Source of the DNA: Nitrososphaerota archaeon
GTDB lineage: Archaea > Thermoproteota > Nitrososphaeria > Nitrososphaerales > Nitrosopumilaceae
Direction: 5' to 3'
Length of the DNA stretch: 64,000 bases
NCBI GenBank assembly: GCA_027315065.1
Contig: DAHUYT010000002.1
Span: forward strand, 30,027-94,026
Positions 29,331 to 37,354 of this stretch are shown here, piece by piece; position 1 is the stretch's first letter, and the number at the start of each line of letters is the position of its first letter. The position numbers were made by a program, and so were the translations under genes. The notes under the pieces are model-generated. The model saw only the letters and a list, made by a program, of their open reading frames with translations. It searched no databases and was not told the DNA's origin.

Positions 29331-29714
29331 TCACATTGCCACAAGCTTGACGTTTTCCATTTTTCTGTTTGTCTTAAAGTCCTTTGTCATGATGCCAATC
29401 TTTTCTGCATCTCCATGTAGCAAGAAGAGTTCCATGCACTTGTTCCTGTCGACCTTGCTGTGAAGATGAGTACCAATTAGATTCTCGTGATTGTGTTTTA
29501 TGCCAGTAACTATCTGCTCCGACTCTTCATCATGAATGATCATTAGAATAGCATGAATTTGGCCAGAAAGGTTTTCCCTCTGTTTCTCTTCTGATACCAG
29601 ATTTCTAATTCCAGCACGAATAATTTCTGACCTTCCGGAAAATCCCATGGTCTTTTGTAACTTGTCTATCTCTGAGAGGATCTCATTGTTTAGAGAGATT
29701 GATACAATTGGCAT
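29331..29714 (-). CDS. NikR-like metal-responsive regulator (ribbon-helix-helix + ACT-like domain)
   Basis: 127 aa. Residues 1-45 form a ribbon-helix-helix (VSISLNNEILSEIDKLQKTM, then GRSEIIRAGIRNL). The C-terminal domain has the NikR-type metal residues in KHNHENLIGTHLHSKVDRNKC: His, His, His and Cys at the order and spacing expected of the four-coordinate site. NikR represses metal uptake when loaded. It lies 538 bases from, and divergent to, the metal ABC transporter at 30253, so a zinc/manganese/nickel uptake role is a reasonable inference; nickel itself is not shown. Confidence 0.8.
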   Translation of the reverse strand: MPIVSISLNNEILSEIDKLQKTMGFSGRSEIIRAGIRNLVSEEKQRENLSGQIHAILMIIHDEESEQIVTGIKHNHENLIGTHLHSKVDRNKCMELFLLHGDAEKIGIMTKDFKTNRKMENVKLVAM

Positions 29715-30252: not shown

Positions 30253-31254
30253 TTGAAGTCTGGGCAAAAAGTGGCCATTGGCGGAGGGATTGCATCTGCA
30301 ATCATCATAACTGTAGTTGTCATGTCAAGCGCAAATATCTTTGTTCATAATAATGCAAACCTTCCAATCCAGAATAACACAAGTCCTGTGGCTCAGAGTG
30401 GTACAATGTCGACCAATCAAATCCCAACATCAAAGGTGCAAATAGTAGCCGCTGAAAATTTTTGGGGTAGTTTAGTATCCCAGCTTGGTGGAATACATGC
30501 GCAAGTGTTGAGTATTGTTACGGATCCGAATGCAGATCCACATGAATACGAAAGCAACACTGCTGATGCTCAATCAATTGCAAATGCAAACTATGTAATT
30601 GTCAATGGTGCCGGATATGATGACTGGGCAATAAAAATTATTGGGGCAAGCAATAATCAAAATCAAAAAGTTTTGAATGTGGCAGATCTTCTCGGTAAAA
30701 AAGAAGGTACCAATCCTCATTTTTGGTACAATCCTGTTTATGTGAATCAAACCGTGGCACGAATGTATTCAGACCTTGTTTCTATCGATCCTACTAATAC
30801 AGCATATTACAAACAGCAGTATGCTGATTTGAATGCGTCACTTGGACAATATAACACTAGAATCGACAAGATCAAGCAGCAGTTTGCGGGCACACGAGTG
30901 GCAGCAACTGAGGATGTCTTTGCATATGTTGCAAACGCTACAGGTCTTGACTTGATATCTCCTCCTGAATTTATGGAAGCTGTTGCAGAAGGAAACGACC
31001 CCCCTGCACAGAGTATTGTACAATTTCAGCAACAGCTTCAGGGTCAAGGAGGAAATGTGGCGGTGTTGGTATACAATAAACAAACGGTGACACCACTCAC
31101 ACAAAGTATCAAGGCACTGGCAGCCCAAAAAGATATTCCGATTGTTGGGGTAACGGAAACCATACAACCACCTGACGTCTCATTCCAAGATTGGATGAAT
31201 GCAGAATTGATCTCTTTGCAAAATGCTCTCAATACAAAGGCTTTAGGTCAATGA
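30253..31254 (+). CDS. Metal ABC transporter solute-binding protein (ZnuA/TroA family)
   Basis: 333 aa. N-terminal hydrophobic anchor (IASAIIITVVVMSSANIF), then a TroA fold. Ligand positions: His in DPNADPHEYES and in NPHFWYN; the third, usually His in the HDAF motif, is Glu in ATEDVFAYV, and a fourth acidic residue is likely in IVGVTETIQPP. The ATEDVFAYV-type subgroup, which I associate with actinobacterial proteins, lacks the His-rich loop of ZnuA. GGCAGG precedes the TTG start. It starts the operon with the ATPase and permease. Confidence 0.85.
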   Translation: MKSGQKVAIGGGIASAIIITVVVMSSANIFVHNNANLPIQNNTSPVAQSGTMSTNQIPTSKVQIVAAENFWGSLVSQLGGIHAQVLSIVTDPNADPHEYESNTADAQSIANANYVIVNGAGYDDWAIKIIGASNNQNQKVLNVADLLGKKEGTNPHFWYNPVYVNQTVARMYSDLVSIDPTNTAYYKQQYADLNASLGQYNTRIDKIKQQFAGTRVAATEDVFAYVANATGLDLISPPEFMEAVAEGNDPPAQSIVQFQQQLQGQGGNVAVLVYNKQTVTPLTQSIKALAAQKDIPIVGVTETIQPPDVSFQDWMNAELISLQNALNTKALGQ

Positions 31255-31260
31255 GAATAG

Positions 31261-32079
31261 ATGAACACAGTAGATAAGATGATCACTGATGCAGTGCAGC
31301 AGGAAATTGTTAGAGCTGAAAATCTAGCAGCGGGTTACCCTGGAAAAACTGTTTGGCAAGGCGCAAATTTTAGTTTTGTTCGTGGTGAGTTTGTAGCAAT
31401 TATTGGTCCTAATGGAGCTGGCAAGACATTGCTGATGCGTTTACTTCTTGGACTACAACAACCTGTTAAGGGAACAATCAAGTTATTCAATTCGCAGCCC
31501 AAGCGTGGTAATCCCAAGATTGGATACGTACCTCAACGTCATCTTATTGATAATGATACCAACATTGAGTGTATTGAACTAGTGCGATTAGCATTTTCCG
31601 GGACCCGATGGGGCTTTGGCTTATCCTCCAAAAGCGAACGAAAAACCGCCTTTGAGGCACTCGAAGCAGTTGGGGCAGCAGAGTTGGCTTATCAACCCCT
31701 CAGTGCTTTATCAGGTGGGGAATTGCAGAGGATATTTTTAGCAGAGGCATTAGTAAGTAATCCTGAAATATTATTACTCGATGAACCATTGTCAAATCTT
31801 GATATCAGGCGCGCGAAGGAACTAGTGCAACTTGTCAATAAAGTGGTTCGCTTGCGTAACGTTACGGCATTGCTTGTGGCTCATGACATTAATCCTCTCC
31901 TGCCATTTCTTGATAAAGTGGTTTACATAGCCAACGGCAAGGCAGCAACAGGAAAACCAAAAGATGTCTTGACATCAGAATCTCTCACGGCATTGTACGG
32001 CGTTAACATAGAGGTTATGCGTGATTCTAGAGGAAACGTAGCAATCATAGGAATTGAGGATCATCATGGTGACGAATAG
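31261..32079 (+). CDS. Metal ABC transporter ATP-binding protein (ZnuC-like)
   Basis: 272 aa. Walker A GPNGAGKT near residue 46, Q-loop YVPQRH, signature LSGGELQRI, Walker B LLLDEPLSNLD and H-loop VAHDI. The GRLLLG-like QPVKGTIKLFNSQPKRG segment is usual for Zn/Mn importers. Six bases separate it from the binding-protein stop, and it overlaps the permease gene by 14 bases. Confidence 0.92.
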   Translation: MNTVDKMITDAVQQEIVRAENLAAGYPGKTVWQGANFSFVRGEFVAIIGPNGAGKTLLMRLLLGLQQPVKGTIKLFNSQPKRGNPKIGYVPQRHLIDNDTNIECIELVRLAFSGTRWGFGLSSKSERKTAFEALEAVGAAELAYQPLSALSGGELQRIFLAEALVSNPEILLLDEPLSNLDIRRAKELVQLVNKVVRLRNVTALLVAHDINPLLPFLDKVVYIANGKAATGKPKDVLTSESLTALYGVNIEVMRDSRGNVAIIGIEDHHGDE

Positions 32080-32983
32080 TTACATCTTCAATGCCAATTT
32101 GTTGATCGATGTACAACAAATGTTTCAATATCAATTCATGCAACATGCCTTTGAGGCTGGAACAGCAGTAGCAATCATCGCAGGAATCGTCGGCTATTTT
32201 GTAGTGTTACGTCGCTCTGCATTTGCATCTCATGCACTTTCCCATATTGGTTTTGCTGGTGCAGCAGGTGCCGTGTTATTAGGAATTAACCCTATTTTTG
32301 GTCTGTTAACGTTTACTTGCGGCGGTGGAGTTGGTATGGCAGTACTTGGCCCACGAGCTGTCAATCGAGATGTCCAAATTGGTACAGTTCTTGCATTCAT
32401 GCTTGGATTGGGCGTGTTATTCATTAGTCTCTATACTGGTTATGCTACAGAAGCATACTCTATTTTGTTTGGAGAAATACTCGGCATAAGCAGCAGCGAT
32501 GTTCTTATAACAGTTACTGCTAGTTTGATAATCCTGGCTGCAGTAGGTATTATGTATAGACCGCTTTTGTTTGCATCACTTGATGAAGATGTGGCAGAAG
32601 CAAAGGGATTGTCCATGCCTTTGCTTGGCATAATTTTTATGCTTTTAGTTGCAGTTGCGGTATCTATCGCTGTTCAAGTTGTTGGTGTTCTTCTTATCTT
32701 TTCATTAATGGTCACACCAGCTGCAATGGCACGACGATTGGCAAAACAACCTAGGAATGCCATGATCATCTCTGTTCTTATTTCTCTAATGGCAACATGG
32801 TCAAGCCTCTTTATTGCTTTTTATGAACCGTATCCTGTAAGCTTTTTCATAACTAGTATGGTGTTTGTTTCTTACTTGTTTGTCAGGTACATTTATCCAA
32901 GCAGGATCTGTTTGGAATGCCGCGAAAAGTTCAGTAGCTTGTCTTTAGCGAAGCACTTGCAGAAAACACATCCCAATATATGA
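32066..32983 (+). CDS. Metal ABC transporter permease (ZnuB-like) with C-terminal zinc-finger-like tail
   Basis: About 305 aa; I prefer ATG 32066 (MVTNSYIFNANLL) to the TTG at 32054. Eight or nine membrane helices with the ABC-3 hallmark AFASHALSHIGFAGAAGAVL and QVVGVLLIFSLMVTPAA. After the last helix the protein ends ICLECREKFSSLSLAKHLQK-THPNI, that is C-x2-C-x11-H-x4-H, a C2H2-type zinc-binding pattern on the predicted cytoplasmic side. That tail is not part of the usual family and may sense or buffer the imported metal. Confidence 0.88.
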   Translation: MVTNSYIFNANLLIDVQQMFQYQFMQHAFEAGTAVAIIAGIVGYFVVLRRSAFASHALSHIGFAGAAGAVLLGINPIFGLLTFTCGGGVGMAVLGPRAVNRDVQIGTVLAFMLGLGVLFISLYTGYATEAYSILFGEILGISSSDVLITVTASLIILAAVGIMYRPLLFASLDEDVAEAKGLSMPLLGIIFMLLVAVAVSIAVQVVGVLLIFSLMVTPAAMARRLAKQPRNAMIISVLISLMATWSSLFIAFYEPYPVSFFITSMVFVSYLFVRYIYPSRICLECREKFSSLSLAKHLQKTHPNI

Positions 32984-36024: not shown

Positions 36025-36834
36025 GTGACAAAAATTGCAGTAATACAGATGAAAGCTTATACAGAGAAGGAAAAAAACCTTAAAAAAATTCTTGATTATA
36101 TTGTAAAGGCGGCAAAAAGAAAATCTGCACTATGTGTATTTCCAGAATTCATGATGTTTTATACCACATCTCACCAATCTGCTTCAGAACTTGCAAGCTT
36201 GGCAGAAAAAATAACTGGAGAATTTGTCACTTCGATATTGGAAGTAGCAAGAAAAAATTCGGTTCAAGTTGTAGGAACATTTTATGAAAAAAGCCCAAAG
36301 GCAAATAGAGTCTATGACACTTCATTTCTAACTGATAGAAATGGAAGAATAGTATCAAAATATAGAAAAATTCATCTCTACGATGCACTTGGTTTCAAAG
36401 AATCAACAAAACTTTATCCAGGTTCTTCACTTGCAAGACCAATTAAAACAAATGTTGGTAAGGTTGGTATGCTGATTTGTTATGATTTGAGATTTCCTGA
36501 GATGTCGCGTATGTTAGCGTCTTCTGGTTCTGAGATTCTAGTTGCTCCTTCCGCATGGGTACAAGGAAAAATGAAAGAAGAACATTGGATAACCATTAAC
36601 AAGACAAGAGCAATAGAGAACGGATGCTACGTTGTTGCGCCAGACCAGGTGGGAAACATTTACTGCGGAAGAAGCTTGGTAGTGGATCCGTTTGGCAAAA
36701 TACTTCTAGACATGAAAAAAAGGGAGGGTATTGGTATAGTTGATATCTCATTAGATCAAGTAAAACAAGTGCGAAAAATATTACCTCTTTTGAAAAACCG
36801 GCGAACTGATATATACACTGATCTTAAGATTTGA
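36025..36834 (+). CDS. Carbon-nitrogen hydrolase (nitrilase superfamily, Nit2-like)
   Basis: 269 aa. Catalytic triad visible: Glu in FPEFMMF (about residue 40), Lys in KYRKIHLYD (about 113) and Cys in LICYDLRFPE (about 151). The KIHLYDALGFKEST stretch is typical of the Nit1/Nit2 omega-amidase or deaminated-glutathione amidase group. It probably hydrolyses an omega-amide such as alpha-ketoglutaramate; exact substrate is inference. GTG start 34 bases after the tautomerase stop; the 3' end overlaps the convergent gene by 11 bases. Confidence 0.87.
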   Translation: MTKIAVIQMKAYTEKEKNLKKILDYIVKAAKRKSALCVFPEFMMFYTTSHQSASELASLAEKITGEFVTSILEVARKNSVQVVGTFYEKSPKANRVYDTSFLTDRNGRIVSKYRKIHLYDALGFKESTKLYPGSSLARPIKTNVGKVGMLICYDLRFPEMSRMLASSGSEILVAPSAWVQGKMKEEHWITINKTRAIENGCYVVAPDQVGNIYCGRSLVVDPFGKILLDMKKREGIGIVDISLDQVKQVRKILPLLKNRRTDIYTDLKI

Positions 36835-37282
36835 TGATTCTACTTGAGCATCGTATGTTACAGCATTGTCTTGTCCATTTTTGTTTCATTGAATATCTAA
36901 ATACAATCATAGGCCAACAGCAACTCTTACACGGAATCCTTGTTGCATACATCATTCCTTTCTGGATTAACGGAGAAGATGCTCTACAGCCATTATGATA
37001 ATTAGAGCATCCCATGAAGCGTTTTCTTGTCTGCCTAGAACGTATGACTAGAATCTTCCCAATCCTGCATTCTGGGCACTTGACTAGTCCATTTGGAGGC
37101 GTATTTGTACCAAGAATGACGTATTTCTTCTTTCTTCCTGACCAAGAAAGATAGCCGTTATTGTCATAGTATTGATGTATCTCTTCTCTTATTCTTACAA
37201 CTTTTTTATTCGTAATTCGAACAAAATTTCTCAAACCTGATCTTTTTTTAAGTACAATTACTTGGGAAATATTTTCTTTCAT
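36824..37282 (-). CDS. Protein with topoisomerase-type C4 zinc fingers
   Basis: About 152 aa from ATG 37282 (the track start 37318 is less likely). Two zinc modules: CPECRIGKILVIRSRQTRKR followed by FMGCSNYHNGC, the standard topoisomerase I C-terminal C4 pattern, and CKSCCWPMIVF then CCNIRCSSR. The N-terminal 60 residues are basic. It lacks any topoisomerase catalytic part, so it may be a nucleic-acid-binding accessory. Divergent from the thiolase gene. Confidence 0.65.
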   Translation of the reverse strand: MKENISQVIVLKKRSGLRNFVRITNKKVVRIREEIHQYYDNNGYLSWSGRKKKYVILGTNTPPNGLVKCPECRIGKILVIRSRQTRKRFMGCSNYHNGCRASSPLIQKGMMYATRIPCKSCCWPMIVFRYSMKQKWTRQCCNIRCSSRIIKS

Positions 37283-37354
37283 TGATGTAATCTGATCTAA
37301 CTGATTAAAGAATAGCAATGAAGAATTTTTATATGGAATCTAGTCAGCAAATTT

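Follow-up and report, generated by a model that had tools for sequence, protein, structure and literature searches.

The permease of an ABC-3 metal importer in one clade of Ca. Nitrosotalea, a small group of acid-soil ammonia-oxidising archaea, ends in a 21-residue C2H2-like tail that, from its pattern of codon change, is a genuine feature kept by purifying selection and not a product of chance. Our main reading, to which we give a probability of roughly 0.4, is that the tail is a genuine zinc-binding microdomain whose zinc-dependent folding may alter coupling in the importer, providing a fast feedback besides the control exerted by a NikR-like regulator. Little is understood of how ABC-3 metal importers are controlled after translation. 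Since the finger was gained a single time and sister lineages naturally have a tailless permease at this locus, the system lends itself to a clean test of whether a zinc finger can serve an importer as a feedback switch. The window discussed here is the whole analysed stretch of 64,000 nucleotides; its relevant features are collected in Table 1.

Table 1. Features of the ABC-3 importer locus and of its permease (positions in the window).
Feature	Position	Strand	Basis
Divergent NikR-like regulator (RHH + NikR_C), upstream of the operon	29331..29714	-	domain matches
Metal-binding extracellular protein (ZnuA-type), putative TTG start	30253..31254	+	PF01297 3.6e-44
ABC ATPase (ZnuC-type), 272 aa	31261..32079	+	PF00005 6.9e-28
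ABC-3 family (ZnuB/PsaC-type) metal importer permease, 305 aa	32066..32983	+	ORF translation, PF00950
ABC-3 membrane domain, permease residues 21-272	32126..32881	+	PF00950 E 1.6e-53; PsaC fold
H56-x3-H60, in place of metal-binding D-x3-H	32231..32245	+	alignment with PsaC and ZnuB family
D102, third metal-site residue of the permease	32369-32371	+	alignment
C2H2-like tail, permease residues 282-302	32909..32971	+	ORF translation, alignment, selection analysis
Tail ligands C282, C285, H297, H302	codons 32909, 32918, 32954, 32969	+	translation

The operon runs from the ZnuA-type gene through the ZnuC-type ATPase gene to the permease gene, whose ATG start is conserved and which overlaps the ATPase gene by 14 bases. 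The permease matches PF00950 over its full length with 182 bits (curated cut-off 20), its AlphaFold core resembles PsaC of the pneumococcal manganese importer (7kyp; TM 0.76, E about 1e-11), and its sequence also matches the solved ZnuB 9oko. With the cluster A-I importer permeases PsaC, ZnuB and MntC (PDB 7KYP, 9OKO) it thus has the fold, the operon partners and the sequence family in common, whereas those permeases have no C2H2-like tail and carry Asp in their D-x3-H where the window permease family carries His. The adjacent NikR-like protein, encoded by the sole NikR_C gene found in the window's genome, is a probable transcriptional regulator of the operon. One ABC-3 permease was found in each tail-bearing genome, with no second. 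Elsewhere in the window, a 164-aa protein (36824-37318, reverse strand) has a topoisomerase-type zinc ribbon (Zn_ribbon_Top1, just under the cut-off), and this gene is kept in syntenic loci.

The first-pass annotation had described a C-x2-C-x11-H-x4-H pattern after the final membrane helix, and the open reading frame translates exactly so: the tail, CLECREKFSSLSLAKHLQKTH, begins right after the last predicted helix (residues 258-276). Across all six reading frames of the window the strict pattern occurs once, and even a loose C2H2 pattern close to a C-terminus has an expected rate of only about 1e-5 per protein, given the local frequencies of Cys and His. Pfam C2H2 models are the top matches of the tail, all below the gathering cut-off (best 18.7 against 27 bits); the ligands and the Phe and Leu core are conserved, while the spacing is x11 against the x12 of the C-x2-4-C-x12-H-x3-5-H definition. 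AlphaFold places a helix across the His-bearing half of the tail and no hairpin, with low confidence (tail pLDDT 46-58 when the whole protein is modelled, 64 when the tail is modelled by itself), and neither model resolves a beta-beta-alpha fold. Because the Pfam matches fall below the cut-off and this fold does not appear, “C2H2-like” is the right name on present sequence and model evidence; the proposal of a C2H2-like motif of putative metal ligands is itself supported, and such ligands would be expected to bind zinc. Among solved sequences, fingers of ZFAT and Ros come closest, neither of them significantly (E about 0.5).

All five of the closest permeases, at 82-100% identity (window, G023, G034, G030 and G020), carry the tail; four of these genomes are MAGs and the window's own is an assembly of 86 contigs. 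Across the five species C282, C285, H297, H302, F289 and L294 are invariant, while the ligand codons vary synonymously (TGT/TGC, CAC/CAT). Synonymous sites in the tail are near saturation in most pairs, with pN/pS of 0.08-0.30 and synonymous changes significantly outweighing nonsynonymous ones (Fisher p = 3e-4 to 7e-8), and it is the invariance of ligands and core against this background that argues for selection. Constraint ends at H302, past which neither length nor sequence is conserved. The C-termini of relatives vary freely in sequence and length, as would suit a neutral C-terminal extension that arose by chance; however, the neutral probability that the four ligands stay unchanged is about 8e-5 in a single species pair, window against G020. 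Barring an error shared by all five assembled sequences, the selection analysis rules out a chance tail, a reading which we therefore regard as extremely improbable.

Outside this group the tail was not found. It is lacking at 76 relative loci with 57-77% identity (one of which runs off its contig), which belong to Nitrososphaerota, Thermoplasmata and Micrarchaeota as well as to bins of diverse bacteria. A tail profile detected no carrier beyond the five among 400 genomes of the order, and among 398 genomes of the phylum it detected only the two tail-bearing ones sampled there. Sixty further ABC-3 regions in the phylum, a few of them misread, partial or truncated, gave no tail in the approximately 55 with readable C-termini. 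The rarity claimed at the outset is thereby borne out, since a search for C-terminal C2H2 extensions among relatives, order and phylum sets returned five genomes only. The same annotation had counted absence from close homologues as an argument against the domain: the tail is indeed absent at 77% identity and below, but it is present in all five permeases at 82% and above. In a tree of 82 proteins these five form one clade (support 100/99), which implies that the tail was gained just once, by the common ancestor of this subclade of Ca. Nitrosotalea.

One genome near this clade, G018, appears without the tail in a manner that bears on its function. Its flanking genes are the closest to those of the window (87.7% over six genes), whereas its ZnuC and ZnuB are 74 and 77% identical and its NikR-like gene 52%, all of the type seen in the tailless G041 and G014. 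By this comparison a cassette replacement took the tail away. At the locus itself (L117), znuCB and the NikR-like gene are swapped for the divergent tailless version within an otherwise syntenic neighbourhood, and znuA looks mosaic. As G018 has a tailless znuCB and all relatives at or below 77% identity also do without it, the tail is, judged from these comparisons, dispensable. Two candidate sources of the tail found no support. For a downstream gene or a frameshift whose trace would still show in tailless sisters, there is no C2H2 remnant in the three forward frames over some 220 bases downstream in G018, G041, G014 and G081; for descent from one specific stand-alone finger, the order-wide profile returned only the five tails along with weak, non-specific matches to small C2H2 proteins, and so points to no particular donor. 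Separately, the permeases of loci L042-L098, 57-76% identical to that of the window, occur in Thermoplasmata, Micrarchaeota, Patescibacteria, Omnitrophota and other bins, a scatter that suggests wide horizontal transfer, with errors in MAG binning also possible.

A cytoplasmic position of the tail, as first proposed, is well supported by topology prediction and by analogy with a characterised homologue. The K/R-rich loops at residues 48-51, 97-101, 163-185 and 221-232 are predicted to share one side of the membrane with the tail, which itself has six K/R against two D/E, and the loops on the alternate side are without K/R. In the PsaC homologue MntC of Bacillus anthracis, the authors assign the C-terminal helix extension to the cytosolic side and find that transport is lost when it is truncated (PMC8487065), so that this position can affect function. 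The topology and the MntC extension together argue that the tail is cytoplasmic, in agreement with the first-pass annotation.

In the mechanism that we favour, the four ligands would bind zinc when the cytosolic supply is sufficient, upon which the tail would fold; sitting by the ATPase and coupling region, the folded tail would contact ZnuC and alter the coupling between ATPase and permease, adjusting uptake in a direction that we can only presume. Such feedback would be fast, with slower transcriptional control by the NikR-like protein alongside. The location of the tail near the ATPase at the end of the last helix, the selection on it and its dispensability together favour an accessory modulator, and it is the dispensability, in G018 and in relatives at 77% identity or less, that speaks for a modulating part and against an indispensable structural one. 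Feedback regulation through the tail is plausible as a model. In its most compact form, in which a single C2H2-like finger is a minimal built-in switch that reads the cytosolic zinc level and itself throttles the importer directly, we regard the idea as rather unlikely. If true, the finger would be, to our knowledge, the first domain of C2H2 type by which an ABC importer senses its substrate, and an unusually small one. The points against the favoured mechanism are the x11 spacing, one short of the local norm, the beta-beta-alpha fold not resolved by AlphaFold, the Pfam scores below cut-off and a cargo that may not be zinc.

C2H2 fingers are usually high-affinity structural sites: they bind zinc too tightly to release it and so stay loaded at all times, a point in favour of a structural role. 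A finger of this kind would not sense anything: it would steady the C-terminal helix, keep the ATPase in place or dock another protein, and we consider it nearly as likely as the zinc-dependent folding switch. Purifying selection on the tail fits it equally well, and the extension that MntC needs for its activity (PMC8487065) gives it a precedent. Against it stand the close relatives and the replaced cassette of G018, which, to judge from sequence, seem to work without the tail, so that the latter would not be a general structural need.

Metal hand-off or buffering, by which the tail would take over or retain the ion as it leaves the importer on the cytoplasmic side, in the way of a compact His-rich tail, is improbable, albeit with a parallel close at hand. 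Paralogous ABC-3 permeases elsewhere in the order (L168, L182, L183, L196, L198 and L204) have His-rich C-termini, their final 40 residues including 8-13 His, which indicates that metal-binding tails at this C-terminal position evolved more than once. The conserved hydrophobic core (F289, L294) that accompanies the single tetrahedral C2H2 site nevertheless suggests a folding unit, not a loose chelator, and one site would offer little buffering capacity.

Still less probable is a membrane-tethered or cleaved finger that binds nucleic acid and controls transcription. The model for it is YtgCR of Chlamydia trachomatis, in which a DtxR-like iron repressor sits on the C-terminus of an ABC-3 permease and is cleaved off (PMC7755916), and the best prokaryotic PDB match of the tail is the DNA-binding finger of Ros (2jsp), though not significantly so (E 0.55). 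Ros and the tail have CLEC in common, but Ros is a free protein with x9 where the tail has x11. The tail is moreover one 21-residue finger that lacks the flanking basic arm or helices as well as a dimerisation domain, and a NikR-like regulator already lies beside the operon. The likeness to YtgCR (PMC7755916) is that of a cytoplasmic metal-responsive domain at the C-terminus of an ABC-3 permease, putative in the window protein; the difference is that YtgR is large, DtxR-like and freed by cleavage, whereas the window permease has only about 30 residues after its last helix, too few for a DtxR-like domain, and a 21-residue motif with no other domains among them. The statement that no standard ABC-3 permease has such a tail holds for the C2H2-like form, which was not found elsewhere and appears new within what was searched (a literature search of limited coverage for znuB and zinc-finger fusions gave nothing relevant), but not for the general idea, as YtgCR already fuses a metal-sensing domain to such a permease. 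Together with YtgCR and the His-rich tails, the finger joins repeated cases in which metal-binding parts were added at the same cytoplasmic C-terminus.

Among transporters, ModABC and YiiP too are known to have cytosolic domains that respond to metal (PMC10710835). The appendages of the MetNI C2 and ModC type, which belong to trans-inhibited ABC importers, follow the principle that we propose for the tail, with cytosolic substrate binding a C-terminal appendage to adjust import (PMC10710835), but theirs is on the ATPase subunit and of an unrelated fold, while that of the window protein is on the permease; the domain search reported no regulatory domain on the 272-aa ATPase.

The identity of the transported metal deserves caution. 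The metal-binding residues of PsaC are D46-x3-H50 (PMC11779740), and those of MntC served for comparison as well (PMC8487065). The window permease departs from the ZnuB/PsaC signature of D-x3-H plus D in having H56-x3-H60 with D102; in an alignment of 24 sequences H56 is invariant and position 60 usually holds H, D or E, and this replacement of D-x3-H by H-x3-[H/E/D] in the permease family suggests an altered metal selectivity. In the NikR-like protein, as read from an alignment, Lys replaces one nickel-binding His (H89 of E. coli NikR). Both departures put zinc as the cargo in doubt, and the permease may carry another metal. NikR-like orthologues adjoin the ABC-3 operon at L113, L115, L116, L118, L119, L120 and L121, and they have an invariant Lys at the H89 position beside invariant His 83, His 85 and Cys 93; the regulator is probably a branch of NikR whose metal site has changed. 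A link to urease, with a nickel importer as the reason for the NikR-like neighbour, was rejected, since urease was found in just one of the five genomes with the tail.

These archaea commonly encode small stand-alone C2H2 proteins, and fingers resembling the tail are, on their recurrence across genomes, real genes in the genus. A 36-aa mini-protein, MEKCPLCCESQPSSNALAIHIQKIHPQRNIAIQVMQ (L227 / L112; G000:C32:5973-6080, reverse strand), occurs in 32 of the 37 genomes of the genus and is likely unannotated in many. The Nitrososphaeria mini-proteins have the C-x2-C ... H-x4-H pattern and in most cases the F and L core, but they are free proteins with x12 between Cys and His, whereas the tail is fused and has x11. 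Other C-terminal additions to ABC-3 permeases were seen as well. The second of two tandem permeases in G053 (L187:1072-2187, forward strand) has about 80 extra C-terminal residues with a winged-helix look, a possible archaeal parallel to YtgCR. In Thermoplasmata, a subgroup of the permeases (L079, L094, L104, L106 and L108) extends about 200 residues past the last helix with extra hydrophobic segments, another C-terminal fusion.
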